From: a virus
Direction: 5' to 3' (one strand)
Virus record (IMG/VR): IMGVR_UViG_3300025096_000149
Span: 1 to 22,381 of that record
DNA: 22,381 bases
Position numbers and translations under genes: made by a program. Positions within the stretch are counted from its first letter, which is position 1; each line of letters opens with the position of its first letter. Below are positions 4,931 to 22,093 of the stretch, piece after piece. Under the pieces are notes generated by a model. That model did not search any database. It was given only the letters and a program-made list of their open reading frames with translations, and was not told the DNA's origin.

Positions 4931-6490
4931 TTAGAATTGCAAGATAACTTTAACGTCTTCTTTCTGTGAAGATGATCTAGTAACAGAGGGTCTGTTATCA
5001 ACATAAATGATGTCACCAGAGCGTTTTTGAGACTCTGGCTTGGAAACTCCAAATGTGAATTCCTGACCCAGGTAATATGTCCTACTATTTATTGTAGTAG
5101 AGACACCTGTAAATTGAACATCAATGTTCAATATATTACCAACATTTGGATTAATTTGTAAGCTACCAGATCCCGTAGGAGAAGCAGTAAATTGTAACTG
5201 CTCAAAACCAAACTTAGGAGAGGGATCTTGAGAACCGTTGGTATTGAGACCAGCTGTAGATCTGTCCTGCCAATACTTCAAAATACCTGTTGCTTGGTCA
5301 TATGAAACAACCCTACCAACTGCAGTAGAACCTAGACCGACTGTTTGAGTAACAAATGCATCAGCAGTAAACGTTGCTTCACTATAACCAGTTCCTACAA
5401 GTTTCAGAGCATAAACCGAACTGGCTTTGTCAATCGTGAGTAATGTAGATGAATTATAATTTGTAGGATTTTTAACGATTCCTACTTGAGCAAATTGATT
5501 GCCCGTGATAAAATCTGGATTCTGAGTATCGTTTTCAAATCTAGCATAAGAAAGAACATTGTATGCTCCTAACTCACGATAGATGTCAGCACCATGCCCA
5601 CCTGAAGGAGGTATGATAACATCAAAGATTGGATCAATTGTTCCGTTTGGAACTCCACCAGTTTCTAAATCTAAAGTTCCAAAGGAGTATCCATTACCTC
5701 CGTTTGACACAGTTACAGACTCAATCTTAGAATCATTATTAACAACAACTGTGGCCTCTGCACCACGTCCATCACCCAGAATTGGTACTCTAGTATAGGT
5801 AACGTTTGCAGTACCAATACCAACGCCACGATTTCTGATGGTTACAATTTTGATCTCACCGCTAGTAGCTGCATTACCTCTTACAGAATCATATGAAGAA
5901 TTAGTATACCAGTCAGTTGGAACTGGCATGTAGTTTGTAGAGTCAAACTTAATGATCTGATTTGGTTTAATGGAATATAGATATTTCCAAATATACCCGT
6001 CACCACTACTACCAGCCTCTCTGGGTTCTAGATCGGTAAAGTTTGGTTCGTCCAAGGAAGGACCACCTCTATAACTATTCTCAGGATTGGCGTTGTTAAA
6101 CAAACAAATATAAACTTTAAACTCACTATTCACCACATAATAATTTGAATCGTAGATGTCAAACGCACCAGTTGGTTGAGAAGGATTATCTCTTGTGATG
6201 TCGTTTCTCCACATATCATATGTGGTTCCAGATTGCCACTGAATCTTTCTTATAACTTGACTTACATCTCCAGGGTTGATCTTTTTGAGAGCCAACATTG
6301 TGTCCCAATACCAGTCGGATTGATCCAAACTGTCCATTGGGGCAGGAGGACTGGAATTCCAATCAGTTTGATATTCAGTGGCGTTAGGAAGACCAATCCA
6401 CGCATAATATGAATTATTAGTATTTTGTACCGAATCTACAAAATTCCTTGCATTCACAATGCGCAATTGATCCGTAATTATTGCTGGCAT
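4931..6490 (-). CDS. 8: Baseplate wedge protein gp8
   Basis: 519 residues. In T4, gp8 is a dimer in the baseplate wedge that contacts gp7, gp10 and gp6. The N-terminus MPAIITDQLRIVNARNFVD, the DGYIWKYLYSI segment (residues 164-174) and the C-terminal IIYVDNRPSVTRS followed by a KEDVKVILQF tail match what I know of cyanophage gp8. It is longer than T4 gp8 (334 aa). The extra mass is partly beta-repeat sequence: VSNGGNGYSFGTLDL at residues 261-275 is the same GGxGY element that recurs in the giant protein, preceded by RNRGVGIGTANVTY. ATG at 6490 is 25 nt from the upstream stop. No clear Shine-Dalgarno is present (only an A-rich AAAAAAG), but a late promoter box lies 20 nt upstream. The stop (TAA) is followed 5 nt later by the DUF4815 gene. 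Confidence 0.9.
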   Translation of the reverse strand: MPAIITDQLRIVNARNFVDSVQNTNNSYYAWIGLPNATEYQTDWNSSPPAPMDSLDQSDWYWDTMLALKKINPGDVSQVIRKIQWQSGTTYDMWRNDITRDNPSQPTGAFDIYDSNYYVVNSEFKVYICLFNNANPENSYRGGPSLDEPNFTDLEPREAGSSGDGYIWKYLYSIKPNQIIKFDSTNYMPVPTDWYTNSSYDSVRGNAATSGEIKIVTIRNRGVGIGTANVTYTRVPILGDGRGAEATVVVNNDSKIESVTVSNGGNGYSFGTLDLETGGVPNGTIDPIFDVIIPPSGGHGADIYRELGAYNVLSYARFENDTQNPDFITGNQFAQVGIVKNPTNYNSSTLLTIDKASSVYALKLVGTGYSEATFTADAFVTQTVGLGSTAVGRVVSYDQATGILKYWQDRSTAGLNTNGSQDPSPKFGFEQLQFTASPTGSGSLQINPNVGNILNIDVQFTGVSTTINSRTYYLGQEFTFGVSKPESQKRSGDIIYVDNRPSVTRSSSQKEDVKVILQF

Positions 6491-6509: not shown

Positions 6510-6517
6510 TATTTATT
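6510..6517 (-). promoter_or_regulatory. T4-type late promoter box AATAAATA upstream of gp8
   Basis: AATAAATA on the minus strand, 20 nt upstream of the gp8 ATG and overlapping the stop codon of the gp9-like gene. It fits the NATAAATA late motif of T4-like phages (consensus TATAAATA, at -10). It would start a short-leader transcript covering gp8 and the DUF4815 gene. Confidence 0.55.
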
Positions 6518-7490
6518 ATGATAATGTAAGAGTCGTTGAACCAATTCCAGCAACACTAAATGAGAGTTGATCTCCAGAAAAACTTATTTGAACTGCTTGA
6601 GTAGAAATTCCACTAATAAATCCACCAGTTGCTGTTACAATACCAGTATTAAACTGAGACGATGCAGTGACTACCCCTAAGGTAGAGACACCAGACACAA
6701 CTAGGGAGTCTGTTTGGATATTTGCAGTAACAGCAATACCAGTTAGATTAGAACCATCGCCAATAAAGTTAGTTGATCTGGTATTACCAATAATGGTGAC
6801 ACCATCAGCCCTTGTCTCTAATTTCTTTTGGTTATTATAATAAAGTTCAACACCAAAGTTGCTATCAGGGTTTGTTGCGAAAACTACAGCAGTTCCACTT
6901 GCAGATACCATGTTGGTATTATCACCAATAATGTTAAAGTTACCAATAGTGGTCTGTAAAACATTACCAGTGGAATCAGTATGGTATATATGGAATTCAT
7001 CCTGATTTCCCATCAGAATTTTATTTGCATTACCAAACGTCAATGATGAACCAACACTTACTTGATCAATAAATGTTGTAATACCGAGATTTGTTGGGCC
7101 AGTAACAGTAAGGACACTCGTTACACCCAATGTAGCAACAGTAGCAACACCAGTAATCTTGAGATTTACGCCAGTTGCTTCGTCATAATTGAGATCTCCA
7201 GTACAAGACCAATCCCCAATCTGCGATGTCGGACCAATAAATGTAGATGGTCCTGTAACAACTATCGACGATGATGCTGCAGAAACCGTTACAGTTCCAA
7301 AGGTTGAACTAACAGATACATTATCACCTGCAACAATACCAGTAACAATTCCTACAGCTAGTGTAGACCCATTACCGAGTAAATCATATACCTCAGTAAA
7401 ATTACTGTTAATTTTATCAGCACCTGATAAAAGAGTATCACCGGTCCCACTATTAGGACCGGTCCCCGTATTAATACCTTGGTATGCCAT
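6516..7490 (-). CDS. Fibre-like structural protein with a gp9-type baseplate-anchoring N-terminus
   Basis: 324 residues. Residues 6-40 (INTGTGPNSGTGDTLL, then GADKINSNFTEVYDLLG) closely resemble the start of T4 gp9, the wedge protein that connects the long tail fibres (there IDTGEIGNASTGDILF, then NKINSDFNAIYNAFG). After about residue 45 the similarity stops. The rest is a fibre-like array of GVxTxxxLxVTG beta repeats, with FHIYHTDSTGNVLQ (166-179), VELYYNNQKKLETRADGVTI (214-233) and GDGSNLTGI (244-252), motifs common in marine phage tail fibres. T4 gp9 is 288 aa. ATG at 7490 has a good ribosome binding site (AAAGGA) and a late box upstream. The likely role is a baseplate-anchored fibre or fibre connector. 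The N-terminal match is what I see; the role is inference. Confidence 0.75.
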   Translation of the reverse strand: MAYQGINTGTGPNSGTGDTLLSGADKINSNFTEVYDLLGNGSTLAVGIVTGIVAGDNVSVSSTFGTVTVSAASSSIVVTGPSTFIGPTSQIGDWSCTGDLNYDEATGVNLKITGVATVATLGVTSVLTVTGPTNLGITTFIDQVSVGSSLTFGNANKILMGNQDEFHIYHTDSTGNVLQTTIGNFNIIGDNTNMVSASGTAVVFATNPDSNFGVELYYNNQKKLETRADGVTIIGNTRSTNFIGDGSNLTGIAVTANIQTDSLVVSGVSTLGVVTASSQFNTGIVTATGGFISGISTQAVQISFSGDQLSFSVAGIGSTTLTLS

Positions 7491-7514: not shown

Positions 7515-7522
7515 TATTTATT
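7515..7522 (-). promoter_or_regulatory. T4-type late promoter box AATAAATA upstream of the gp9-like gene
   Basis: AATAAATA directly after the TGA of the giant gene and 25 nt upstream of the gp9-like ATG. With the box at -10, transcription would start about 15 nt before the ATG and include the AAAGGA ribosome binding site. Confidence 0.6.
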
Positions 7523-10500
7523 TCAAACAACGTAGTTGTTGTTCTTTAATGGTTTCTCTCTCTGAATCAAAGGAGAAGTTGTAATACCGGTGTATGAATT
7601 TGGTGTAAACTCTAAAGCACCTTTTGCAATTCTATTCAAGAACTGGATTTTACCCCAACTAAACTCACCCCAAATAATTTCATTATTATAAACACCACCA
7701 TATCCAGTAGCACCGAAGGCAACGTTGTTAACTTCAATCCTTCTGAGGGCAGTAGTTCCAACACCAACTGAAGGCGAATACTTAATGACCGTAAATGCTT
7801 CAGCAACCTGATAGATACCGTCAAAGTTATTGACTGTCTTAGAATTTGACAGATTGACTGTGAACCAGTCTCCTTTCTTCAATCCACTAACAGTAACAGC
7901 AGTTCCTACGATCATAGGATCTCTCATGTAAGAGTCCTCAGGAATGTACAGTTCTAATGTACCAAGTCCACCAGTAGATTGTGCGTAACCAACAATTTGA
8001 CCTTGATCACCAAAGTAAGAATTAACTCCAACATTCTCAAGTCTTACATTAGGAACTTCTACTTGTACAAGAGGTGCTTGAGTGTAACCAGTACCTGCAT
8101 TTGTAATTGTGTAGGATGTAACTCCACTTCCGCTTACATTTGCTGTAACTAATGCTCTTATACCATTAGGATCATCAGGAGTAGAGATAGAAACTGTTGG
8201 TGTGAATGTAGAATATCCAGATCCAACCAAGTCTGCTGTGATAGATGTAACACTAGAAGACCCAATCCCGGTCGTTGCAGTAGCACCAACAATAGTTTTT
8301 TGGTCAATGATAGTAATTTTATCCTGATAATCTAAAAGATTAGTCTCATTTGTAGAATTGAAGAATGGTCTTGCAGTATCTGTATAAGCAAATTGACTAG
8401 ATGTACCGACATAAGAGATTAGATATGATGCGGGTTGGATGAATGGTTCATACTCAACCCTATCCTTAGTAATAAACTGACCATTAATTACAATGTCGTT
8501 TTGCTGTTTACACCAACTAAGTGGCCTAACCAGCGATTTATTAGTTGTAACACCAGGACCATCATATGGGAAGGTTCTTACAGTATCTAAAGTTGTAATA
8601 CCAGTCACAATTCTTGGTTCCTGATAAAAACCAAAACTTTGACCCTTCTTACCATCATTCTTGAGTTGTAATGTATCACCAATCTTAATGGTTTCCCATG
8701 TATCAACTAAGACAACATCAACGTCGGGTGTTCCCTTATAGAAGATAATCTTAGACTTATCACCATTCCTAGGAGGTTCTGAAAATTCAATAACAGCACC
8801 ACCATTGAATTTATATGCCTGATTAGGAACCTGGAGGATATCGTTAATAGTAACAATCAAACATTGTGCAAGATTGATTTGAGATCCATCAGCAACTTCA
8901 ATAGCGAAGCGTTTCCCGGTGATTGTCAGATTAAATTTCTTCTGTACTCCATCAAATTGATCGTCAAGTTGATCAAATACATCAAGTTCACCAACAGTAA
9001 ATCCATTAAAGTTGTCACGATATACATCGGTAACTGTAAGTTGGAACTCATTGAATGGAATTCCAGGATCAGTTTGAATACCAGTAGTACCACCAATTGA
9101 TGCTCTAAGGATTTCACCTTCTCTATATCCAAATCCAGTACTTACAATATTGAATGAAATAACACTAGATCCTTGTCCAACCACAATATCTGCACGAGCA
9201 CCAGTACCAACACCAGAGGTTCCATCAGAATATACCAGTGGAATACCTGCATAAGGTATTGGTTCATCAATAACAATAACTGGAGGACTATTGGGATTAA
9301 GATTGGCACCAATGTAAGAAGTGGTGATAGCAACAACGTGCCCATTTTCAACAGTAGCAGTTCCAATATTGACCACAGTGGCAACACCAACTGTAGAAAC
9401 TGCGTAACCCACATTTACGGTTTGAACACCAACCCGATAACCTGATCCGCTGTTACCGATAGCAACCGAGTTAATAGTACCTGCAATAGATACAAATACG
9501 GAAGCACCAGCACCAATTAGGGGTTGATACCCCAAACCTGGGGTAGAACCAACAGATATAATGTTACCACCTCTAGGTATAGTGGCCTTGTTAGGATCGT
9601 CTTCAGACGACACACTATCACCAAGATAGGTAATACTCGTAATGCCCGCCCGTTCTTCCAATCTAAAGTCACCTAGGGTTGATTGAGCACCTTGTGGTTC
9701 CTGAAGGATATTGGAGTTAAGGACAATAGCCTGTTGTGTGGAGAAACCGAGTACATTCGCACCATTTTGAAGAATAGTGAAATACTTTGATTGTCCATTG
9801 AACTGAAGTTGGATATTATCAAATGTGTAGTTGGTCTCATATGTATCTTGGTCACTATCCTCAATACCACTTCTCATAAAGGTTCTACCTTGGAAAGATG
9901 AGTATGTGGTGATACCAACCCAGTCTCTTTGATCAGGAGCACCAGTCGTTGTGCTCATAGGAGTCTTACCATAAGGTGCCTCAACAAAATGAACAGTATT
10001 GTCCACAATATTGTAATTACCACCCATAAGTTCTACTGATGACCCACTTACATGAGTTGCAACACCTGTACCCATTTGAGCCCTAAGGACTCTCAAACTG
10101 TTAGTAGAACCAACACCAATATCCTGAATAATCATCAATTCTTCATCAATCTTAATAATATCGTTTGCCTTAAAGGAACTGATACCAGCAACAGAGAAAT
10201 CAACATCAAATACGACATTTTGTTGTAGAGTTGTGTTGTTTTGGGTCTCAGTAACAGGCGCCTGGATCATATTATCAATAGCAATAAGAGCTCTTGCATT
10301 CTGGCTGGTACAAGTAACTTTATGGAATGTACCAATACCTAGATTAGTTAAATCAATCAGAGTTGGGGGAACAACTAATGCATCTGTTGCAGATGCAGCT
10401 AAACCAACATTAACATCATTAAGTTTGACTGCATATACAGTAGAAGGTAGTTTATCTGTGGATACACCCGCAATTACTGTTGTTCCAATACCAATAGCAT

Positions 10501-13500
10501 TGGCTGAAGACAGCTGAGAGTTTTCATAGGAATATTTTAATTTTTCGCCAGTTACAAAGTAGTGGTTAGGGAGTTTCAAATAGTTATCGGTTAAATCAAC
10601 TTCAGTATCACTATTTCCTAGGAATGCTCTTTGGAATATTGGTAAATTATCATGGAACATGTTAAAGTTCCTCTTAGTATCAAGCGCAGTTCCAGTATAA
10701 TTACCAAATTCGGAGAATAGTACGTTATTATCAATTGTGATTGAGGAAGGACCAACGACATTATCGTAGTTCTTCATAGAGATACCGAATGCCCTTACAT
10801 TTACGTCAATACTTGCAATTGGAGTATAAACAAGGTTGGTGGTAGAACCAGTCTTTGTAATACCGACTGTTCCAAGTCCGACATTGGTTACAATGTCACC
10901 ATACTTAACAAAGTTCTCGTTACTAACCGAATCGAGGACTGCAACCTCAAACATTTCATATTCATTATTGGTTGTATCTGTTACCTGAACAATAAAGTAT
11001 TCACAAGCAAAAGGATTGTCGTAATTTGCAACTAAATTGGCTGTAGGAGATACAGATGCAGCAATTGTAGTGTCGTAAGAAGAAAGATTGGAAACAATCA
11101 GACTTTCAGTTCCTACACCAGTTCCTCCACCTGCAATCTCAACAATACTACAGTCAGCAGTCAAAGCTGTTCCTACATTTGGAACAAATTCGACAATGAC
11201 GTTAGAACCATCAATATATGTGTGATAAGTGCCAAAACCGGAGATACCAGCCAATCCTTGATTGTTATCAATATCACCATAATGGAGACTTTCTACTTTT
11301 GTTCCATTTTGGAGTAGATTCAGTTCATTAAAGAAATATCTCTGATTGGTATCTTCAAATTGGGCCAGAACTTTGGCAGATCTAACAGATGTTGGGAAAG
11401 TAACCACAGTTGTTGCAGTTCCAACAGGAATATCCGTAGTAGTGGCAGCAATAGAGACAATATTACCGATTGAGGTAGAACCAATACCGGCAATAATGGT
11501 AGATCCACTGAAGGTTTGATATGAGATCTGATAATTATTGTATGTTGGGAGGGTTGGGAAGAATGTTAGACCCCACTGACTAGTCCCAGCACCAATATAA
11601 CCAAAATAACCTAATGGTATGCCATTATCAATAGTAGCATACTGACTCATGTAGCCATTCGTACCATCCTGAACCATACTGACAATGCTAAATTGCTTTC
11701 TGTTGCGCAATTCAGTATCTGTAACCAATGTGAATATTTTGTTCCATGCATACTTGTCATCAAAAAAGTCAACGATAGAATACTCCGTATCTCTAGGATT
11801 ACTATTAAAATTACCACTAAAATCATCAATTCTCAGAACTCTATTACCTCTCGATTCAAAGTAATCAAGAAGAATTTTATTTTCAAAAATAATTTCATCC
11901 GAAATAATCTTATTACCTGAAATATTAATAGTAGTTTCTGTCGCACCGTCAAAATCAGGATAACAGTATAATGACTCTTCACCGACAATATCAATAACCG
12001 TAGAAATTTCTGTCTCAATTGGTGTCACAATAAGTGCAGCATTGTTATCAACCACAAGATCGGCAAATTTCTCAAATCCTGCAGTATGGTTAAGAGCACT
12101 TACTGGATCATTCCAAGTATCCAGGGGAACTCTGGATTTCAGTGAATATGAGAAGTTTTGGTAATATTCGTTATTGGGAATTACTTGTAAATTGTCATTT
12201 AACATACCCGAATTGGATTGCCAACCATAGACGAATGTCGCACCTACACCCAAGGCAATAGTAGAATCATAATCAATCGCAGATTTAATAATACCCTGAG
12301 TTCCAGATGTTTCTGATCTAAGGATTGATCCAACCTCAAAATCATCTTCTGATGTGATGAATAGATACCCACCTACATCGTCGAATCTTTCAACAGAACC
12401 TGTACGGTCAACATTGACTACTTTTTCTCCGGTAAAGAATGGTTTAATCTTAATTTCGGAATCAAAAATTGGGAAGTATGTTTTAGGTGTTACAGAACCA
12501 ACTACCTGAGAAGTGACTTTGCCTGGAGATTTACCAGCCGCAATATACTTCTCAAGACTATACTCAATGTATGCGCCTGATCCACCCAATTGACTATCAA
12601 GGGCCACAACTTCAAACAATGGATAACCGTAATCCTCAGAGTTATAACCACTACCGTCTGTACCAAAACCAATAGCTACGTTTTCAACAAGAACTGTCTC
12701 TCCAATCTTGAAGGGCCACTCCGGAGGATCACTAAACTGCTTAGAGAACCCAAGACGAACAATCTTAGAAACTTCATTATAAGTAACGGAACTGATACTG
12801 AATCCGTTAGTATTGTTAATTGGAATAATTTTAGGTGAAATATTGCTGAGAGAGTGGGTGTTCTCAACAATGAATACATCACTATCACCTAACTCATAGA
12901 AGAGTTCTACATCGAAGATTTGTTTATCAGTGACACCATCAAGGACTATTAAATCAGGTGCCTGACTATAATTAACACCACCGGAGGAAATGCCAATACT
13001 CTCAAAACTACCAAGTGCTTCAATCTCTAATATTTGAGGAAGATTGGCCACAATGTTTAATGTATTATCGGATGGATATCCAAAACCAATATTATTAAGT
13101 CTTGTCTGTAAAATACCACCAATTGAAGTACTGGTTGGTTTCAGTAAAGCACCTGTACCTTTCTTACTATTAACTTTAACATATCCAGGAAGTGACTTAT
13201 ATCCAGTTCCGTTATCAGAGGATGTTAATTTATTAATAGGACCAACAGCCCGTTGAGAACTGGTGGTATATAAAATATTTGCTGTTGTCTGGTCATAATA
13301 GACAATATCATCATCATCAAATGGAATGTTATAGTTAAAGGTCTCTGGAGTAACTCCAATTAGACTAAATCTACCATCAAACTTATTATTAAAGACATTC
13401 AGACTGTTATGCTCCAATACTGTAGTATCCTCAAAAATTCTTAGTTTTACTGGAGGAATAATATCAAAATTATCGGGAACGAACCCATAATACAAACTTG

Positions 13501-16500
13501 GGGGAATACTATCGGTAACATCAATATTAACAGAGGCGTTAGGAGTAACACCTACGGTACCAGATTTAGTAACTTCAAACTTACTAGTGGATTTGGTTGT
13601 CCAGAACTGATTGACCTTTTGGAAATCACTGTAAATATTCATATCAAAGGCTGCATAATCAATCCCCTTCTCAGTAAATGATAGTGATGAATCAGATAAG
13701 TCAAACTTTATCTTTTGATTTTTTTGAATATGAACACTTGGATTGATTCTAGAAAGTGTGGCGGTCTTGGCAGATCCAACATTGATAAATTTGGGGTTTT
13801 CACTTTGAAGTTCTGCTGCATCTAAAACTAACTTAACGGTACTTCTATCAAAAGCATAGACATAGTACATCATCTCATCAATTAGGCCTTCAGATACAAC
13901 ATCGGCAGAATAGATGATCTTATCGCCCGTAATATACTTGTTATAAGGAACATTAAAGGTGTTTGTGATGGTATTGACTCCCGTCTGCGGAATAATGTCG
14001 GGATCAAATACGATTCTTCTATTATAGTCATTATACTTGACAGAAATAGTTTTTGTAGTAGTTGGATCTACGTCAACAGTGACAACATCACTTCTCTTCA
14101 GACCATGTGTTACTCCGGTGGCAACAGTAACAATGTTTTCCGAAACTCTACCACTCAACACTTCTTTAATATTAGTATTGAAACTGTGATAACTTCCAAG
14201 TCCTACTTTATCAACAAAGTAAAGTAATGCTCCAGCTTCACTATTGATACCAACGTATTGACCTACAGAATTAACACCAACTCGCTGTGTTGCAATACCA
14301 ATCACATCTTTTGAGAATGGAATTGCAAAAACATTTCTTGATTGTGTTAGTGTAAATTCTGGAGTGTTGTCTATACCACTCCATACCTGAAGACTTGTCC
14401 CACCATTGGGATAATAAGTCATAGGAGTATTAAGTGGTAATTTGTGATCAGGAATCAGGATCTGTTGTGGATCAATTCTAACTTGTGTAACACCAATACC
14501 AGGGTTAGAGAATGTAAGTGTTGTAATACCACTTGTAGTAGAAGTTCCAATACCAACAGATTCGTTGGGTTGGAAATAATACTGTCTATTTGTTACCAAA
14601 GATCTTTGAGTTGTGATACCAAGGGATGTGAAATTAATCTTTCTGGGATCATCTCGTAAGAGTGTGCCAGCAACATGAGTTACTGCAAGTGTATTGTTGA
14701 CTCCTCTCAGTACTCTGATTCTACCTGAAGGAGGATCAATGTTGAGAACCTTCATATGTTCTTGCTCACATCTCAGAATATCGTTAACTCTAATAAAATT
14801 GGGTTCTAAGGAACCAGTGAGATAGACGTGAGTTTGGATACCAGTCTGTGTGTCTGTACCTACACCGACAGAAAGATACCATCTCTCACTACTGACACCA
14901 ATAAAATATGCACCAGTAAAGTTTTTATAGAATTCTGAGAGGGCATCAATATTGATGATGTCCCCAGGTAAGAAGTTGTGGGGGGCAGATGTAAATCCAA
15001 TAAACCCGTTTAGATTCAAATTGCCACCAAATTCCACATTAGGAATAGAAGTAGATGCAAGACTAATATTGTTTACTTCCTTACCTTTGAGTTCTGAAAC
15101 TCTATAGGTAATATTTCTACCACCAGTATCAGTAGAATTAAACTCAACTCTATCATTTATGGCATAATCTGTACCAGCATCAATAATTTCTACCTTGTCA
15201 ACAGAACCAATCGAAGTAGCTGTAATATCAACAGATTGATTTCTAACCAAATCTGAGTTGTAAATGTAATCATATTGACTATTACCACCATTGGTAAAGT
15301 AGAATTTGGTATTTCTAAACCAACTATCTGATGTTATATCGTAATCTATCTGATTGGAGGATGCTCTAAAGTTGAAAGCCTCTGGTAATGAATGATATTG
15401 GTTTCCAATTACATATGGGAATACTGGTCTTCTATACTTATTGAATGGACCTTGAGAATCAAGGTTATCAGATACTGTACAGAAGTATGCATACACACCA
15501 TTAGGAAAATCTGGTGTAACACAAAATCTTCCATTTGAAACATCTAAATCTCCATCTGCAGCAAAGATGAAGTCATCAACAAAGAAACCGTTCTCAAATG
15601 CATTATAAGAAGGTCTATTGATACCAGTAGTCTTGAGTTTATATCCACTCTGCATTCTACGAATACCACCAGAACCATCAAAGTTTCCAAATCCATATGG
15701 TCCATATATTGGATTTCCGTCATAAGCCCACCCCAAGATAGGTGAGTGGAATTGATTTTCTTCCTCTTCTCCACCACTGTTTAATATAAGGTCAGAAATA
15801 CCAAAATTAACATTATCCTCATTAAATCCATTAAGAGTAAAGAGTTCTTTTCTTAGTGGTCTAGGAGCATATAGTGCGGAATACTGTAGTGATTTGTTAT
15901 TAATATTTTCTTGTACTACAGTATCACTATCTCCCAAATTACTGAAGTTCTTCTCAAATAAGTTGACACTCCAAGCTCTAATGTTAGCTTGAATTCTTGC
16001 TGACTGACCCGCAGCAGATACTGCAACTGTTGTCTTACCTGTCTCATATCCTACACCACCTTTAGATACAATAACCTCATTGATTCCACCAACATCATTG
16101 ATGATAGGAACCAATACAGCAAAGTTTCCTGTATCACTTAGAATCTCCAGATTAGGAGGAGAGTTGTATCCTCTACCAGGAGAGTTAACAACAATCTCAG
16201 TAATTTGGCCGTTGTTGATAATAGGTGTCAATCTTGCCTTCTCACCTGCATCAAATACAACCTCGGGCTGTCTACTAAAGTCAATAATGGTAGATGCACC
16301 ATATCCTACTCCACCATCTGTCAAGTTGATGGTTTCAATAGAACCTCTGAAGATTGGTTGTAGTTTTGCCTCATAAAGAAGAATATTACCAATAAATGGG
16401 TCATCACTAATCAGCCAGTTCGCTTCCTCACGTACAAGGACATAGTACTCATCAGACATTGTACCATTACTGGTAATCTCTGCTTCTCCACCATCAGGAC

Positions 16501-19500
16501 CGGTCCATGCCAGAACAGACACAGGAGTGGCTATATTTTCTTCAACAGGAGACTCAATAATAAACAGTTCTTGAAAATCTTCAACGAATGTCTTATCGAA
16601 CGTTGCTGCAGCACCTTGCACATCAACAACAATTGGAGGATAGTTAAATGATCCTCTACCAGCATTTACAAAATCAATACAAATATTATTAGAGTAATAG
16701 AAGTTTCTATCGATACTTCCTGTTCCAATCCTTGTCAGACCAAACTCATCCTTATTGATGTATTTGACAAAGTAAGAATCTCTCTCGTTTAAACCTTTAA
16801 TAGAATCACTAGAATCTGTTGGTTTGATGTATTTGACGACATCTTGTCCATTGTATCCATGATCAGGAATCTGAACATAGTTAGAAGCAGTGTTTACTCC
16901 AATAGAAGGAATATTTCTCTCTTTATTTTCATAACCAAAACCAGGATTAGTGACGACAACACTTGATACAACCTGTTTGAGCTCAGTTGCAACAAAATAT
17001 TGTACACCATTACCATAATTGGTTATATTGACTGTATTAATCCCAGCAAATCCATCTGCTCTCGACTCATGGAGTGTCATGGAATTTTGTCCAGTAACAA
17101 ATACAAAATACTCAGTGTTATTGGTCAATCCTGTAATAGTTTTTGTAGTTCTTGGCTCATAAATGACACTTTCACCATCCTGGAATCTGTGATCCGTGGA
17201 GAATACAATCTCATTAGTAGTTAATCTGACATCACTAGGGAAGTCAGCAATAAAAGAATTCTCCAGTTTTACGGAGATCATTCTGGGTTCTGCTGCAGCA
17301 CCAAAACCATTACCACCAGTAATTGTAATAGTAGGAGCCTCATAGTAACCCATACCACTGTCTATAACTTCAAGCCTCTCTAACTGACCGACAACATTAC
17401 AGAAACCAGTGGCACCTACACCTACTTCATCTTTAATATAAAGAATGGGAGGACTGATAACATCATAACCAGATCCACCATTTGTCACTGTAAAGTTAAC
17501 AATATCGCCGTAGTAGACACTATTAAATGATTTGTAATTAAGGAGCTCAAGTCCATTGACGAAAATACCAGTATAACCGGATTCAGTTAAGATTGTCCCC
17601 TTTCTACTGACAGGCTCAAGAATCTTTCTGTATAAACCTTGAGGTTTGATATTCTTACCATAGAACTCAAGATAACTAATAGATGCGTTGACTACCGAAC
17701 CATTAAATGTAAAATATGTGCCTCTCGAAAGATCAGCTTTACTTCTAGCAAGTTTAATATCACTCTGATCAACACGATATACAAAATATGCACCAGATGC
17801 AATATCTTGGAAACCATTTCCTTCTGATTGGAACCATACAGCATCACCAGTGTAGAATCCGTGGTCAGGTAAAGTAGTGGGATTGGTTGGAAGTGGTAGA
17901 TTTTGTGTACTTGAGAGATTTGCTGAGAACGTAATCTTCCTATCGTAAGGATTAGTCTCAAGATTGTAATATCTTGGGATAGAATTAGATGCAATCAGAG
18001 TATCACCACCAAATTTGGCATACGTGTTTTGAACGTTTGCAACAAAATTATTAATGTATGGCTGTCTAGTTGAACTACCTTTTAGAAGCTGATTTTCAAG
18101 ATAAAATTGACCTGTTAGAGGAATGGGGGTATTGAATGTTACATTGACGGTAATATTATCAATGGTTCTTGTAATCTGACCCAAGATTGATACTGTCGAA
18201 TCTTCATTCTCATATCTTACAAAATAACCTTCTTTAAAAAATGTATCGTCATAAACATTAAATTTATAAACAAAGGCATTCGGATCAACTACTTCCGTTT
18301 TTGCAATTTTAAACTTTGTCTTTACATTTAAGATATAATTATTATTCTTCTTACCGGGAGCTTCATATCCTAATGACTTTATTTGAATGGTGTCATTCAG
18401 TCTAAAGTAAGCCGTAGGATCATTACCAATAAAATCCTTCAAAGTATTAGTAAATCTAACCTTTATTTCTTTCTCAGTATTACTTCCCACGTATGCATAA
18501 GAATAATTGTCCAACTTGGCATCTATTCTATTTTCAAGTGGTACATCAATTCCTACTACATTGAAGAATTGATTTGCTGTCTTACCACTATAAGCAATAC
18601 TTACTTCTTCGTCGTTCTGATTAACTACAGCAATTCTACCGTTTTCTGGAAAATCTATGGTAGAGTCTACATTGATAATAGTTGCACCGATGGCAACATT
18701 TTCTAAAATTTTTGTAAGTGGATTGGGTTTGAACTTACCGTAAATTGAACCCTCTACATCTGAGTCCCTATCATATCCCGTGTCAATGCTAATCTGATAG
18801 AATTGATACCGATCATAGGGAATCTGCTGAACGTTCGTTACAGACCCTCTAGCGTTGGTCTCACGTTGATATATGGTAAGGTTCTGCAAGTCAAGAGGAT
18901 CACCCTGCAATTTCTCAACAACAAAATCCTTGCTTACTTTGTAATCAGCGTTTGATGGTGTAAGAAGAAATTGAGATGGTTTGATAATTTCAACATCTTC
19001 ACCATACAATGCCCTGAACAATATTTCATAAGACTGATCGGTACCCTTTGATGAGTAAAAACTATCTACGTTATAGATAAAGTTCTGTTTGTTTACTCCA
19101 GAGAAAAAGGTTCTATTACTAAATCCTGGTGTGACCTGATATTTTAGTTTATTAAAGAACTGTTGAAGGAATAGAACATTTAAATTATGTACCTTTGTTC
19201 CATCTGTATGAGATCCAACTCTTGTACTACTAAATGTGCATAGCTCTGGAGCACCAGTAGTAATATATGTTGTAATACCACTAAATCCTCTGGAACAGTT
19301 TTCAAAGACCGTATCCGTTTTTGTTGCATAAAATATAATCTCATTATCAATTTTTACGATTCCATTAGTCTCAGAGAAACCTAATGTTGATTCAACTTTA
19401 ATATCATCTTGAGTATAGTCTACATCTTCTGTTAATTCTGTGTCCGTTATAAGATTAGCTAAATTCTCTACCTTAACATATTGATCAATATTGTTGAGAA

Positions 19501-19639
19501 GATCAATAGGACCACTTTCATATTCTTGAGATACGTAATATTGCTCCAGAAAATCCGTTAATAGAGGGAAGTCCTCTCTAACGTACTGTGGAAGTTGACT
19601 AGAAACAATTTCCTGAAACTTTACTCTATCTACGGTCAT
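7523..19639 (-). CDS. Giant modular virion structural protein (4038 aa), in the gp7 position
   Basis: One uninterrupted ORF of 4038 codons, roughly 440 kDa. It sits between gp6 and gp8/gp9-like, where T4 has gp7 (1032 aa), so a baseplate-wedge role is inferred from position; I cannot demonstrate homology to gp7. The N-terminal 250 residues look like a conserved head domain (VKFQEIVSSQLPQYVREDFP, then NLNVLFLQQFFNKLK, FYSSKGTDQSYEILFRALYG and DVEIIKPSQFLL), familiar from large cyanophage structural proteins. The body is beta-type modules: GGxGYxxxP elements, HGxxTGDxVxY modules, ID(N/E)E...RG modules and a YHYH domain near residues 1291-1395. Later familiar motifs are GYNSEDYGYPLFEVVALD (about 12600-12700) and NNEYYQNFSYSLKSRVPLDT (about 12120-12190). 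The C-terminus (NEIIWGEFSWGKIQF, then IQREKPLKN) also looks like a conserved end. I see no signal peptide, transmembrane segment or catalytic motif. ATG 19639 lacks a clear Shine-Dalgarno; a palindrome lies 21 nt upstream. Confidence 0.85.
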   Translation of the reverse strand: MTVDRVKFQEIVSSQLPQYVREDFPLLTDFLEQYYVSQEYESGPIDLLNNIDQYVKVENLANLITDTELTEDVDYTQDDIKVESTLGFSETNGIVKIDNEIIFYATKTDTVFENCSRGFSGITTYITTGAPELCTFSSTRVGSHTDGTKVHNLNVLFLQQFFNKLKYQVTPGFSNRTFFSGVNKQNFIYNVDSFYSSKGTDQSYEILFRALYGEDVEIIKPSQFLLTPSNADYKVSKDFVVEKLQGDPLDLQNLTIYQRETNARGSVTNVQQIPYDRYQFYQISIDTGYDRDSDVEGSIYGKFKPNPLTKILENVAIGATIINVDSTIDFPENGRIAVVNQNDEEVSIAYSGKTANQFFNVVGIDVPLENRIDAKLDNYSYAYVGSNTEKEIKVRFTNTLKDFIGNDPTAYFRLNDTIQIKSLGYEAPGKKNNNYILNVKTKFKIAKTEVVDPNAFVYKFNVYDDTFFKEGYFVRYENEDSTVSILGQITRTIDNITVNVTFNTPIPLTGQFYLENQLLKGSSTRQPYINNFVANVQNTYAKFGGDTLIASNSIPRYYNLETNPYDRKITFSANLSSTQNLPLPTNPTTLPDHGFYTGDAVWFQSEGNGFQDIASGAYFVYRVDQSDIKLARSKADLSRGTYFTFNGSVVNASISYLEFYGKNIKPQGLYRKILEPVSRKGTILTESGYTGIFVNGLELLNYKSFNSVYYGDIVNFTVTNGGSGYDVISPPILYIKDEVGVGATGFCNVVGQLERLEVIDSGMGYYEAPTITITGGNGFGAAAEPRMISVKLENSFIADFPSDVRLTTNEIVFSTDHRFQDGESVIYEPRTTKTITGLTNNTEYFVFVTGQNSMTLHESRADGFAGINTVNITNYGNGVQYFVATELKQVVSSVVVTNPGFGYENKERNIPSIGVNTASNYVQIPDHGYNGQDVVKYIKPTDSSDSIKGLNERDSYFVKYINKDEFGLTRIGTGSIDRNFYYSNNICIDFVNAGRGSFNYPPIVVDVQGAAATFDKTFVEDFQELFIIESPVEENIATPVSVLAWTGPDGGEAEITSNGTMSDEYYVLVREEANWLISDDPFIGNILLYEAKLQPIFRGSIETINLTDGGVGYGASTIIDFSRQPEVVFDAGEKARLTPIINNGQITEIVVNSPGRGYNSPPNLEILSDTGNFAVLVPIINDVGGINEVIVSKGGVGYETGKTTVAVSAAGQSARIQANIRAWSVNLFEKNFSNLGDSDTVVQENINNKSLQYSALYAPRPLRKELFTLNGFNEDNVNFGISDLILNSGGEEEENQFHSPILGWAYDGNPIYGPYGFGNFDGSGGIRRMQSGYKLKTTGINRPSYNAFENGFFVDDFIFAADGDLDVSNGRFCVTPDFPNGVYAYFCTVSDNLDSQGPFNKYRRPVFPYVIGNQYHSLPEAFNFRASSNQIDYDITSDSWFRNTKFYFTNGGNSQYDYIYNSDLVRNQSVDITATSIGSVDKVEIIDAGTDYAINDRVEFNSTDTGGRNITYRVSELKGKEVNNISLASTSIPNVEFGGNLNLNGFIGFTSAPHNFLPGDIINIDALSEFYKNFTGAYFIGVSSERWYLSVGVGTDTQTGIQTHVYLTGSLEPNFIRVNDILRCEQEHMKVLNIDPPSGRIRVLRGVNNTLAVTHVAGTLLRDDPRKINFTSLGITTQRSLVTNRQYYFQPNESVGIGTSTTSGITTLTFSNPGIGVTQVRIDPQQILIPDHKLPLNTPMTYYPNGGTSLQVWSGIDNTPEFTLTQSRNVFAIPFSKDVIGIATQRVGVNSVGQYVGINSEAGALLYFVDKVGLGSYHSFNTNIKEVLSGRVSENIVTVATGVTHGLKRSDVVTVDVDPTTTKTISVKYNDYNRRIVFDPDIIPQTGVNTITNTFNVPYNKYITGDKIIYSADVVSEGLIDEMMYYVYAFDRSTVKLVLDAAELQSENPKFINVGSAKTATLSRINPSVHIQKNQKIKFDLSDSSLSFTEKGIDYAAFDMNIYSDFQKVNQFWTTKSTSKFEVTKSGTVGVTPNASVNIDVTDSIPPSLYYGFVPDNFDIIPPVKLRIFEDTTVLEHNSLNVFNNKFDGRFSLIGVTPETFNYNIPFDDDDIVYYDQTTANILYTTSSQRAVGPINKLTSSDNGTGYKSLPGYVKVNSKKGTGALLKPTSTSIGGILQTRLNNIGFGYPSDNTLNIVANLPQILEIEALGSFESIGISSGGVNYSQAPDLIVLDGVTDKQIFDVELFYELGDSDVFIVENTHSLSNISPKIIPINNTNGFSISSVTYNEVSKIVRLGFSKQFSDPPEWPFKIGETVLVENVAIGFGTDGSGYNSEDYGYPLFEVVALDSQLGGSGAYIEYSLEKYIAAGKSPGKVTSQVVGSVTPKTYFPIFDSEIKIKPFFTGEKVVNVDRTGSVERFDDVGGYLFITSEDDFEVGSILRSETSGTQGIIKSAIDYDSTIALGVGATFVYGWQSNSGMLNDNLQVIPNNEYYQNFSYSLKSRVPLDTWNDPVSALNHTAGFEKFADLVVDNNAALIVTPIETEISTVIDIVGEESLYCYPDFDGATETTINISGNKIISDEIIFENKILLDYFESRGNRVLRIDDFSGNFNSNPRDTEYSIVDFFDDKYAWNKIFTLVTDTELRNRKQFSIVSMVQDGTNGYMSQYATIDNGIPLGYFGYIGAGTSQWGLTFFPTLPTYNNYQISYQTFSGSTIIAGIGSTSIGNIVSIAATTTDIPVGTATTVVTFPTSVRSAKVLAQFEDTNQRYFFNELNLLQNGTKVESLHYGDIDNNQGLAGISGFGTYHTYIDGSNVIVEFVPNVGTALTADCSIVEIAGGGTGVGTESLIVSNLSSYDTTIAASVSPTANLVANYDNPFACEYFIVQVTDTTNNEYEMFEVAVLDSVSNENFVKYGDIVTNVGLGTVGITKTGSTTNLVYTPIASIDVNVRAFGISMKNYDNVVGPSSITIDNNVLFSEFGNYTGTALDTKRNFNMFHDNLPIFQRAFLGNSDTEVDLTDNYLKLPNHYFVTGEKLKYSYENSQLSSANAIGIGTTVIAGVSTDKLPSTVYAVKLNDVNVGLAASATDALVVPPTLIDLTNLGIGTFHKVTCTSQNARALIAIDNMIQAPVTETQNNTTLQQNVVFDVDFSVAGISSFKANDIIKIDEELMIIQDIGVGSTNSLRVLRAQMGTGVATHVSGSSVELMGGNYNIVDNTVHFVEAPYGKTPMSTTTGAPDQRDWVGITTYSSFQGRTFMRSGIEDSDQDTYETNYTFDNIQLQFNGQSKYFTILQNGANVLGFSTQQAIVLNSNILQEPQGAQSTLGDFRLEERAGITSITYLGDSVSSEDDPNKATIPRGGNIISVGSTPGLGYQPLIGAGASVFVSIAGTINSVAIGNSGSGYRVGVQTVNVGYAVSTVGVATVVNIGTATVENGHVVAITTSYIGANLNPNSPPVIVIDEPIPYAGIPLVYSDGTSGVGTGARADIVVGQGSSVISFNIVSTGFGYREGEILRASIGGTTGIQTDPGIPFNEFQLTVTDVYRDNFNGFTVGELDVFDQLDDQFDGVQKKFNLTITGKRFAIEVADGSQINLAQCLIVTINDILQVPNQAYKFNGGAVIEFSEPPRNGDKSKIIFYKGTPDVDVVLVDTWETIKIGDTLQLKNDGKKGQSFGFYQEPRIVTGITTLDTVRTFPYDGPGVTTNKSLVRPLSWCKQQNDIVINGQFITKDRVEYEPFIQPASYLISYVGTSSQFAYTDTARPFFNSTNETNLLDYQDKITIIDQKTIVGATATTGIGSSSVTSITADLVGSGYSTFTPTVSISTPDDPNGIRALVTANVSGSGVTSYTITNAGTGYTQAPLVQVEVPNVRLENVGVNSYFGDQGQIVGYAQSTGGLGTLELYIPEDSYMRDPMIVGTAVTVSGLKKGDWFTVNLSNSKTVNNFDGIYQVAEAFTVIKYSPSVGVGTTALRRIEVNNVAFGATGYGGVYNNEIIWGEFSWGKIQFLNRIAKGALEFTPNSYTGITTSPLIQREKPLKNNNYVV
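8045..9475 (-). repeat. GGxGYxxxP beta-repeat cluster C (four copies)
   Basis: Four degenerate copies in the C-terminal third of the giant protein: IGNSGSGYRVGVQTVNVG (about 9415-9475), NIVSTGFGYREGEILRASIG (9085-9160), DLVGSGYSTFTPTVSI (8180-8250) and ITNAGTGYTQAPLVQVEVP (8045-8115). The common pattern is a beta strand, then (N/D/S)xGxGY, then a second strand often begun by AP or TP. The copies are protein-level repeats, too diverged to recombine as DNA repeats. Confidence 0.65.
12600..13235 (-). repeat. GGxGYxxxP beta-repeat cluster B plus GYNSxxY motif
   Basis: Three copies in a row: TSSDNGTGYKSLPGYVKV (about 13165-13235), RLNNIGFGYPSDNTLNIV (13045-13110) and ISSGGVNYSQAPDLIVLDG (12935-13010). 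They are followed by VLVENVAIGFGTDGSGYNSE near 12650, a related but distinct conserved motif. All lie in the middle of the giant protein. Confidence 0.6.
15455..15765 (-). other. YHYH-type domain inside the giant protein (YHYH replaced by YAYF)
   Basis: Residues about 1291-1395 contain GWAYDGNPIYGPYGF, then SGYKL, then NGRFCVTPDFPNGVYAYF and FPYVIG. This is the ordered signature of the YHYH family (GxALDGxPIYGPYG ... NGxxxxTPxxPxGxYHYH). The tetrapeptide that names the family is YAYF here, so both histidines are missing. YHYH domains occur as separate secreted bacterial proteins and inside large cyanophage structural proteins; their biochemical role is not established to my knowledge. Loss of the histidines argues against a metal-binding role for this copy and for use as a structural module. 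Confidence 0.75.
16020..17490 (-). repeat. GGxGYxxxP beta-repeat cluster A (seven copies)
   Basis: Seven copies within about 490 residues: VTNGGSGYDVISPPILYIKD (17430-17490), VIDSGMGYYEAPTITITGG (17310-17380), VTNPGFGYENKERNIPSIG (16900-16970), VNAGRGSFNYPPIVVDV (16620-16680), LTDGGVGYGASTIIDF (16270-16340), VVNSPGRGYNSPPNLEIL (16140-16205) and VSKGGVGYETGKTTVAV (16020-16090). A further weak copy, IIDAGTDYAINDRVEF, lies near 15140-15200. The last three standard copies are spaced about 130 nt apart, a period of about 43 residues. The same element appears once in gp8. Confidence 0.7.
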
Positions 19640-19660: not shown

Positions 19661-19680
19661 GTCAGTAGATATCTACTGAC
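19661..19680. repeat. Perfect 20-bp palindrome over the gp6 stop codon
   Basis: GTCAGTAGATATCTACTGAC reads identically on both strands. In the mRNA it can fold as an 8-bp stem with an ATAT loop; the gp6 stop (TAG, complement of 19673-19675) is in the left arm. The giant ATG is 21 nt downstream. No U-run follows, so it is not a standard intrinsic terminator. A processing site, a translation-coupling element or a protein-binding site are possible. Confidence 0.7.
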
Positions 19681-21658
19681 TGTACTTAGAAATTCCAACA
19701 TCGACAGTTGTAATGGGAACACCCCTTACTAGACGGTTTGAACCGTAACTTGAAGAGACTATGTAGTTAGTTCCTGAGATGTCATTTCCTGAAGAAATGT
19801 TGTCTGCGATAACATTAACTGTTGTATTATTTACATCCAATTGTAGATAGAGATCTTGGAGACCAATCACATCATTTGAGTATGGCTGAGCCGATACTTC
19901 TATCAGTGGTGAGTCTCTATTAACGATGGTTGAGATAATATTTATTGGATTCAGTTTAATTTCACCCTTCATATAATCAATGGTACCAACATTTTGTTTT
20001 ACAATAATAGGTTCGGAGGGTGAATTCAGTTTAAAGAAGAACAATGTACCTTTCCTGAGGGTACAATCAGGTTTATCACCCAAATAAACGGTACCACTAA
20101 TACCACTTACAGTAAATCCACTAGTTCTAATGTTATAACCCAACAAATTACCAGAGAAAACCGCAGAGTGCCCATGGTTTTTGATGTAAAAACGGTTACC
20201 ATAACACAGCTCATACTCTGCAAACTGGTTGAGTCTGGCAACCATATCTCGCCTAACGTCAATATTTGTAATATTGGATGTCACCGAATCACTACTTTGA
20301 TCAATAATTTTCTGGAACTGAGAATACTTAAACCTAGCACCAAATTGATTTAAGTCAGAAGAATTTGAATAATTTGCAACATTCTGTGTAACAATATTTT
20401 GAACAGAAGAAGGGGAAGATGCTAAATTACTATTATAATAAACATCACAATCAGCTTCAACATAAAGATACTTCAGATCGATGATTTCAGGTCTAATACC
20501 GGCAACTGAGTAGTTTTTGATCTGGAATTGAAGGTTTTGTTTGATGGCACTTGACAAGTATACGCCATTATAAGGCTTAATACTAATATAAACCTTTCCA
20601 TACTGAGGAGGACTTAAGTCTTCGCCACCAAATGCCGATACAGATTCGGCTTCTGGGTAGATTTTAGGAATTAAACCCTCATAATCGACCGCTGTGACTG
20701 CCCGATTTTGCGATGCGTAGATCTGTGGAGCGTATTTTTTAACTGATGCAATACTCTCAATGGGTTTTCCGCCTCTTGATTGCACATCAGTACTCACAAC
20801 CGACACACCTTGACTAATGGAATTGCCATTATTGCCGGCCATGTTACCAATAAAGGTAAAATTAGTGATATTATTGGCCACACTACCCGATGTAGTGATG
20901 TAACTGGCCTCAATATAGTTGTTATTTTCTAATTTTACGCCAAAAATGTCGTCTCCGAACAAAAGTTCGTACCTTTCTTGACCAATTTCTTGAATAAAGT
21001 AAGATCTAGTCGAAGCTGTAACGTCAAAAAGACTATTAAAGAGGTCAAATTTTCTTGAAACCGTCGAATCCTTAGTATCTCTGACTATAACAGACAATAA
21101 ATCAGTATCAATACCAGAATTTGGTAGTATAAACTTCTGCTTTGGGTTTCCTGCATCTACAGTATAAGTTTGTGTGATGTAAGTTCCTTCATATACCTCG
21201 ATATTGGAGAATCTTGCCTGTCCAAACGAGTTTACAGGGACTGTAATATCATTAGGGATAGAGAATATGAAGTTTTGATTCTTATTAACACCTGTAGATC
21301 TGGAGGTAAGTACTGCTCCAGCCTTAAGAGTGACTGTAACTGCGGTGGTGTTACTTACATCTACACTAAAAGATATATTAGCACGTGCTGCTTTACGTGA
21401 TCTCGGAACATATCCTATATTGCGTGCTAGAGAGACTACATTCTCCCTTAACGTGGCACTATCTATGAATACCTCATTAGTTACCATATTGGCATTATAT
21501 GAGGTTATATAAGTATTATACGCTAAAGCATCGATTATTGTACTTAGATTAGATCCCTCAAAATCGTAGTCAGTAAAATTTGAGTTGGTACGAAGATAAT
21601 CCTTGATGGATTCCTTGATCCCATTAAAATCTAAGTTACTAAAGTTAACTAATGGCAT
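19673..21658 (-). CDS. 6: Baseplate wedge protein gp6
   Basis: 661 residues, against 660 for T4 gp6. gp6 is a baseplate J-like protein that forms the dimeric ring core of the wedges with gp25 and gp53. The N-terminus carries the family signature: YDFEGSNLSTIIDALAYNTY (31-50), then NEVFIDSATLRENVVSLA (61-78) and GYVPRSRKAARA (82-93), matching the T4 pattern FDFEGSN...LAYNTY...LGYTPRS. The middle portion YEGLIPKIYPEAESVSAFGG near residue 325 is typical of the J-like core. ATG 21658 follows the gp25 TAA with no gap (TAAATG), with AGGT just upstream, which indicates translational coupling to gp25. The C-terminus ends inside a 20-bp palindrome. Confidence 0.95.
   Translation of the reverse strand: MPLVNFSNLDFNGIKESIKDYLRTNSNFTDYDFEGSNLSTIIDALAYNTYITSYNANMVTNEVFIDSATLRENVVSLARNIGYVPRSRKAARANISFSVDVSNTTAVTVTLKAGAVLTSRSTGVNKNQNFIFSIPNDITVPVNSFGQARFSNIEVYEGTYITQTYTVDAGNPKQKFILPNSGIDTDLLSVIVRDTKDSTVSRKFDLFNSLFDVTASTRSYFIQEIGQERYELLFGDDIFGVKLENNNYIEASYITTSGSVANNITNFTFIGNMAGNNGNSISQGVSVVSTDVQSRGGKPIESIASVKKYAPQIYASQNRAVTAVDYEGLIPKIYPEAESVSAFGGEDLSPPQYGKVYISIKPYNGVYLSSAIKQNLQFQIKNYSVAGIRPEIIDLKYLYVEADCDVYYNSNLASSPSSVQNIVTQNVANYSNSSDLNQFGARFKYSQFQKIIDQSSDSVTSNITNIDVRRDMVARLNQFAEYELCYGNRFYIKNHGHSAVFSGNLLGYNIRTSGFTVSGISGTVYLGDKPDCTLRKGTLFFFKLNSPSEPIIVKQNVGTIDYMKGEIKLNPINIISTIVNRDSPLIEVSAQPYSNDVIGLQDLYLQLDVNNTTVNVIADNISSGNDISGTNYIVSSSYGSNRLVRGVPITTVDVGISKYSQ
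19939..19946 (-). promoter_or_regulatory. Possible intragenic late promoter box in gp6
   Basis: AATAAATA on the minus strand inside the 3' part of gp6, about 300 nt upstream of the giant gene. The three genes behind the canonical gp25 box span more than 14 kb, so an internal promoter for the giant gene would make sense. A chance occurrence in AT-rich coding DNA is equally possible. Confidence 0.25.
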
Positions 21659-22060
21659 TTACCTAGTGGGCTGTAATGCAAATGATAATTGTTGTGATAA
21701 TACATCAATACCAATAATGTCGTAGGTAATGACACAACTAAACTCATTACGGTCAAAGTTTGGAGTAACTTTAACAGAATTAAGACTCACTCTAGGCTCA
21801 AAGTTATCAATAGTATTCTCAATTTCTGTTTGAATAGAACTAGCGGTAATACGATCTAGATTCTCAAACAATAATCCTGAGACATTACTTCCAATATTGG
21901 GTCGGAAAGGTTTCTCACCAGGTAAAGTAAATACGAGATTACGAATTGCACGTGCAATAGCATTCTCATTTCTCGTTACAATCACATCACTATTGATGGG
22001 ATTGACCTGAAACGACGCACTAACGTCTAAAAAACCTTTACTAACCCTTTGAACAGGCAC
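21659..22060 (-). CDS. 25: Baseplate wedge protein gp25
   Basis: 133 residues, against 132 for T4 gp25. This small core wedge protein binds gp6 and links the baseplate to the sheath start. GEKPFRPNIGSNVSGLLFEN (48-67) is the central family motif, and FEPRVSLNSVKV (87-98) holds the conserved EPR triplet (E88-P89-R90). The start is GTG at 22060: it gives MPVQRVSKGFLDVSASF, the expected N-terminus, and no in-frame ATG lies nearby. There is no obvious Shine-Dalgarno; the TATAAATA late box lies 26 nt upstream, giving a leader of about 15 nt. gp6 follows immediately. Confidence 0.93.
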   Translation of the reverse strand: MPVQRVSKGFLDVSASFQVNPINSDVIVTRNENAIARAIRNLVFTLPGEKPFRPNIGSNVSGLLFENLDRITASSIQTEIENTIDNFEPRVSLNSVKVTPNFDRNEFSCVITYDIIGIDVLSQQLSFALQPTR

Positions 22061-22085: not shown

Positions 22086-22093
22086 TATTTATA
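22086..22093 (-). promoter_or_regulatory. Canonical T4 late promoter box TATAAATA upstream of gp25
   Basis: An exact TATAAATA on the minus strand in the 48-nt gap between the 51-aa ORF and gp25, preceded by C (CTATAAATA). It is the only exact consensus box I found, and it heads the gp25-gp6-giant unit. A 6-bp inverted repeat (TCAGTT 22081-22086 / AACTGA 22100-22105) flanks it. Confidence 0.75.

Follow-up and report, generated by a model that had tools for sequence, protein, structure and literature searches.

We propose that, in a T4-like marine cyanophage (Kyanoviridae), the giant gene on the 22,381-base stretch of phage DNA analysed here (the window, an IMG/VR fragment) codes for the wedge protein gp7, one copy of which would join two gp6 subunits in each wedge while a giant arm extends outward. 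We put the probability of this reading at roughly 0.85. By sequence comparison we show that the core of the protein is homologous to that of T4 gp7 and that the gene order gp25-gp6-gp7-gp8 is conserved. The gene family was already known, and the evidence presented here pins down the small portion of the protein that is equivalent to T4 gp7. Very large cyanophage proteins share this core with T4, contrary to the published view that this group lacks gp7 (PMC7029224). With the shared part and the sites of added material now located, the role of the arm becomes testable.

The giant gene, its family and its neighbours

Every recognised gene in the window lies on the minus strand, including the ORF of 4038 codons at 7523-19639, which starts with ATG, has no internal stop and encodes a gp7-type baseplate wedge protein of 4038 aa (442 kDa, pI 4.6). 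A metagenomic relative (L024 and L104, which form one contig with an identical overlap) spans the gene with 4039 codons. Over the first 3583 codons its protein is 83% identical to that of the window at a dN/dS of 0.16, with values of 0.10 to 0.22 in each 500-codon block, and we show in this way that the giant gene is under purifying selection. All 70 homologues from IMG/VR are free of in-frame stops in the N-terminal 465 codons, and 69 of them stay open up to the end of the sequence; the other, L077, stops at 2539 aa. The counterpart in S-B05, the closest isolate, has 4024 aa. The window DNA contains no direct repeats of at least 30 bp and no tandem repeats able to cause a misjoin. The relatives, the isolates, the low dN/dS and the lack of repeats bear out the preliminary description, which had claimed a single intact ORF of 4038 codons and left its strand unstated. 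The gene is thus confirmed as real and intact, with no detectable artefact or misassembly.

By tblastn, some 460 phage records contain homologues, frequently annotated as gp7 or as a "baseplate wedge initiator"; almost all of these records are Synechococcus or Prochlorococcus myoviruses. The PHROGs family phrog_2885 ("baseplate wedge subunit", 4179 positions) is matched by the window protein with 3140 bits, and the closest protein, QCW22831.1 of S-B05, is 66-71% identical over the whole length. Proteins in the gp7 slot range from 896 aa (Melnitz), 1006 (phiN3) and 1032 (T4) through 1937 (S-CREM2), 1942 (S-H34), 3446 (S-WAM2) and 3884 (S-CAM9) to 4067 (Bellamy), 4120 (S-SCSM1), 4156 (S-SM2), 4225 (ACG-2014f), 4307 (P-TIM68), 5195 (P-SSM2) and 6619 aa (S-SZBM1), with about 6395 in S-RIM8 and 6603 in P-RSM4, both taken from annotated coordinates. 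Its size had been placed near the upper end of what is known, which these longer homologues contradict: within a range of 896 to 6619 aa the window protein is mid-range, and it is a typical member of an already catalogued giant gp7-like family seen in hundreds of phages. Evidence for a place in the virion comes from homologues rather than from the window phage. Mass spectrometry of virions detected S-SZBM1_208 (6619 aa) with 71 peptides (PMC9146016), a protein that we find by sequence comparison to be homologous to the window giant, and S-CREM2 gp122 (1937 aa) with 91 unique peptides (PMC10665884). The S-SCSM1 record also labels its homologue as a virion protein.

Read along the minus strand, the window begins with a gp25-like wedge gene with a GTG start (21659-22060), identified by where it lies and by the succession of gp25 and gp6 seen in relatives, followed by the gp6 baseplate wedge gene (19673-21658; phrog_219, E 3e-191), whose product is the expected partner of the gp7 core. 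After the giant gene come a small protein like the N terminus of T4 gp9/gp10 (6516-7490; PF07880), the gp8 wedge gene (4931-6490; phrog_438, PF09215) and a DUF4815 structural protein that runs off the window edge (3-4925) and is VrlC-like in that it occupies the VrlC slot of relatives. The giant thus sits between gp6 and gp8 with one gp9/10-like gene before gp8; S-B05 and P-TIM68 likewise carry one gene there, and synteny of gp25, gp6, the gene in question and gp8 holds in the relatives inspected. The spot between the giant and gp8 is variable, with different genes or none in relatives.

All six copies of the motif NATAAATA, taken here as the late-promoter consensus of cyanophages, are on the strand that carries the genes; the opposite strand has none. 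Three of them directly precede a gene: gp25 (copy at 22086-22093), the gp9/10-like gene (7515-7522) and gp8 (6510-6517). The giant gene has no copy directly ahead of it, a hint that it shares a transcript with gp25 and gp6. A perfect 20-nt palindrome at 19661-19680 spans the gp6 stop codon (RNA hairpin of -11.8 kcal/mol, z -3.3) and is absent from L024, whose sequence differs at this place. Without that stop the gp6 frame would run about eight codons further, to the stop position of relatives; gp6 as read here therefore ends slightly early, through either a real variant or a sequencing error.

The N-terminal gp7 core

The correspondence with T4 gp7 lies in residues 1-290 (18770-19639), which comprise N-terminal helices and a segment homologous to T4 gp7 residues ~725-814. 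The signature FYSSKGTDQSYEILFRALYGEDVEI (residues 185-225; 18965-19087) aligns with T4 gp7 725-765. In a search of all PDB sequences with a profile (A3) that combines 71 N-terminal sequences, the two best matches were T4-type gp7 proteins (E 2.5e-5 and 3.8e-5; next match 0.05), and A3 positions 189-222 aligned with T4 gp7 725-758. The depth of this profile was required, as phmmer searches of the PDB with the whole protein gave only noise; a 13-sequence alignment (A1) was too diverse for scanning. Profile-profile comparison (hhalign) with five T4-type gp7 sequences gave an E of 7.9e-11 over 90 columns, pairing window residues 185-286 with T4 725-814. The shallower 13-sequence profile reached 1.8e-9 against T4 gp7 in hhalign, and 13 other T4 proteins, included as controls, all remained above 0.07. 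When residues 1-465 were modelled with AlphaFold (mean pLDDT 67.7), a Foldseek search ranked T4-type gp7 chains first and second, as the sole matches below 1e-3; with a TM-score of 0.12 and a model of moderate confidence, this ranking is support, not proof. Three methods (profile, profile-profile and fold searches) support a gp7 equivalent at the N terminus.

A protein of phage phiN3 bridges the cyanophage giants and T4-type gp7, as judged from its matches to both: it is recognised by A3, and it matches the T4 gp7 family phrog_964 with an E of 8.6e-7, its residues 10-208 falling at 643-832 of that family. From this alignment the window protein would begin at about T4 gp7 residue 643, where the Pfam gp7 helical domain starts, with the helices themselves aligned weakly; the helical bundle at residues 8-60 has a pLDDT below 50. 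In T4, the stretch from ~643 to 814 attaches gp7 to gp6. Only about 90-130 of 4038 columns can be matched to the T4 sequence, and T4 gp7 residues 1-640 (domains I-IV) have no counterpart in the N-terminal region of the window protein.

The preliminary description had regarded the gene as a gp7 equivalent with conserved head and tail domains. The alignments support a gp7 link for the N-terminal ~290 residues only, and the rest of the protein is unmatched to T4 gp7. The C-terminal region (residues 3787-4038; 7526-8281) is conserved among the giants and is unrelated to T4 gp7: comparison of the last 252 residues with T4 gp7 gave E values of 0.43 and 0.78, with no relation in sequence or fold. A gp7 tail domain was rejected, since the model of this region matched nothing in the PDB below an E of 0.001.

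Composition and growth of the arm

What had been called an expanded middle is more aptly an extension on the C-terminal side of the gp7 core, which in T4 is itself preceded by the 640 unmatched residues. The expanded part contains ten diverged copies of a module of ~40-90 aa, GxGY, which was counted with an HMM that replaced a regular expression and makes up about 15% of the protein. Single modules lie at residues 710-774 (17318-17512), 858-915 (16895-17068), 1476-1530 (15050-15214) and 3771-3861 (8057-8329), and pairs at 1098-1230 (15950-16348), 2131-2247 (12899-13249) and 3385-3511 (9107-9487). T4 gp7 has none, Melnitz two, S-CREM2 and S-H34 six each, and P-RSM4 and S-RIM8 have 16-18 in pieces of ~5.9 kaa. 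Longer proteins carry more copies (Spearman 0.76 across 15 entries, relatedness not corrected for). One GxGY module also occurs in gp8 (residues 209-272; 5675-5866), and the head-closure family phrog_460 matches the module too, which suggests that it is common to several virion proteins.

Alignment with marine equivalents allowed the variable segments to be mapped, and insertions and deletions cluster at few sites. An optional block of 308 aa (residues 2612-2919; 10883-11806), with a weak repeat inside, is absent in S-CAM9. Residues ~1022-1088 are missing from all seven distant homologues compared. An insertion site at residues ~3394-3440 is used in P-SSM2, ACG-2014f, P-TIM68 and S-SM2, with more than 1,000 additional residues around 3394-3439 in P-SSM2. 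In the ~6-kaa forms about 510 residues are inserted within the gp7 core, after window residue 112. Identity to the seven distant homologues peaks at 1-300, 1351-1500, 3151-3300 and 3601-3750 and is lowest at 901-1050 and 2701-3000. The 1.9-kaa homologues retain the N-terminal core and the block at ~1093-1523, with its GxGY modules and YHYH domain. In S-SSM7 (L012, 19992-39086) the giant is split into two gp7-annotated genes of 3007 and 3001 aa, with another structural gene between the halves and the break near window residue 3180.

Growth by internal duplication had been suggested from the sequence alone. The ten GxGY modules and their rise with length uphold this in part. The modules account for no more than ~15% of the protein, however, several of the length differences are discrete insertions, and no duplication survives at the DNA level; DNA repeats, of which the window has none, were dismissed as the source of the growth. 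The protein has therefore grown partly by internal duplication and partly by block insertion. A further, tentative idea, which we would not bet on at present, is that the arm is a modular platform for receptor-binding fibres, on which blocks gained or lost at residues ~112, ~1020, ~2612 and ~3400-3440 would change host contacts and leave the wedge core unaltered.

The YHYH domain (PF14240) occupies residues 1295-1391 (15467-15757) and scores 88.9 bits against a cut-off of 25. The histidines that give the domain its name are not intact: the window reads YAYF at residues 1383-1386. The aligned cyanophage homologues have YAYF, YAYH (P-TIM68) or YCYF (S-CREM2 and S-H34), never YHYH, and this favours a structural over an enzymatic role, which we regard as the more likely. 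A genome scan for YHYH proteins used a search pattern containing YAYF and is thereby biased, so that no YAYF frequency is drawn from it; the Pfam family in the control genomes offered no canonical YHYH protein for comparison. The YHYH domain is 43-55% identical to proteins in genomes of Bacteroidota and other bacteria (e.g., L195, L227 and L236). Several of these matches have 400-500 aa; others (L183, L184 and L229) lie on MAG contigs as long ORFs of phage-like character.

Role in the baseplate and comparison with known systems

As inferred from T4, Vibrio phage XM1 and the type VI secretion system (T6SS), one copy of the giant protein per wedge would join two gp6 subunits, so that a virion would contain six copies. 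A 2:1 complex is common to T4 gp6-gp7 and TssF-TssG (PMC6300606). The other ~3,750 residues would make up an elongated, acidic arm rich in beta structure, which would broaden the periphery of the baseplate and bear, or make contact with, gp8, the VrlC-like protein and the receptor-binding fibres. This arm may have grown by small beta modules (GxGY), one YHYH domain and larger blocks at few sites; T4 would instead have built upon the 640 residues ahead of its core. In the XM1 gp7 orthologue (242 aa) the core bundle is N-terminal, and the tail spikes are held by a loop and the C-terminal part (PMC10457771). By analogy the cyanophage additions, which lie within the core and on its C-terminal side, would sit where this minimal gp7 attaches receptor-binding proteins, and the arm probably carries the baseplate periphery. 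An enlarged or decorated baseplate, which the preliminary description had raised, is plausible.

Other readings of the gene are possible in principle. The single gene could be a product of misassembly, or of a hidden frameshift fusing two genes; the window is a 22-kb metagenomic fragment, and in S-SSM7 the same content is spread over two genes. The same long ORF nevertheless recurs in independent contigs and in isolate genomes, the latter all but refuting misassembly, and the window lacks DNA repeats. Misassembly was rejected on the relative with its 4039-codon ORF and dN/dS of 0.16, and we give this reading practically no chance. A real protein might still be a cyanophage-specific structural component that merely occupies the gp7 position, with the true gp7 function performed by VrlC. 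Cyano- and pelagimyophages have been reported to lack gp7, with VrlC indicated instead (PMC7029224), and most of the giant protein has no T4 match. We consider this unlikely, since the N terminus matches T4 gp7 in all three of these kinds of search (profile, profile-profile and fold), with clean controls, and since phiN3 has both its phrog_964-matching gp7-like protein and a separate VrlC. The window, too, combines a homologue of gp7 with an occupant of the VrlC slot.

An arm that is mainly enzymatic, in which the YHYH domain, as a metal-dependent hydrolase, would breach the cell wall when the phage infects, is very improbable in our judgement. Phage YHYH domains are predicted to bind Zn via three histidines and an aspartate and to be hydrolases (PMC7824862); H1298 and D1307 are kept in the window protein, and the domain persists even in the 1.9-kaa homologues. 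Against such a role stand the altered naming motif, here and in all aligned homologues, and the fact that the domain accounts for only ~100 of 4038 residues.

Among named systems, XM1 gp17 and TssG of the T6SS resemble the core in its expected 2:1 role with a gp6-type protein, by analogy rather than sequence comparison, and they lack the giant arm. Sinorhizobium phage phiN3 gp105 (1006 aa) and the protein of Methylophilales phage Melnitz (896 aa) share the N-terminal core and contain 2-4 GxGY modules, with neither the giant arm nor the YHYH domain. T4 gp7 (1032 aa) occupies the same slot, and its residues 725-814 correspond to window residues 185-286; unlike the window protein, it has neither GxGY modules nor a YHYH domain, while its residues 1-640 and C-terminal domain VI found no counterpart in the window. 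The giants of P-SSM2, S-RIM8, P-RSM4 and S-SZBM1 share the slot, the gp7 core and the YHYH block with the window protein and differ from it by extra blocks. S-B05 and phrog_2885 come closest, with the same gene order, the same size and similarity over the full length, and are set apart from the window protein by ordinary divergence only.
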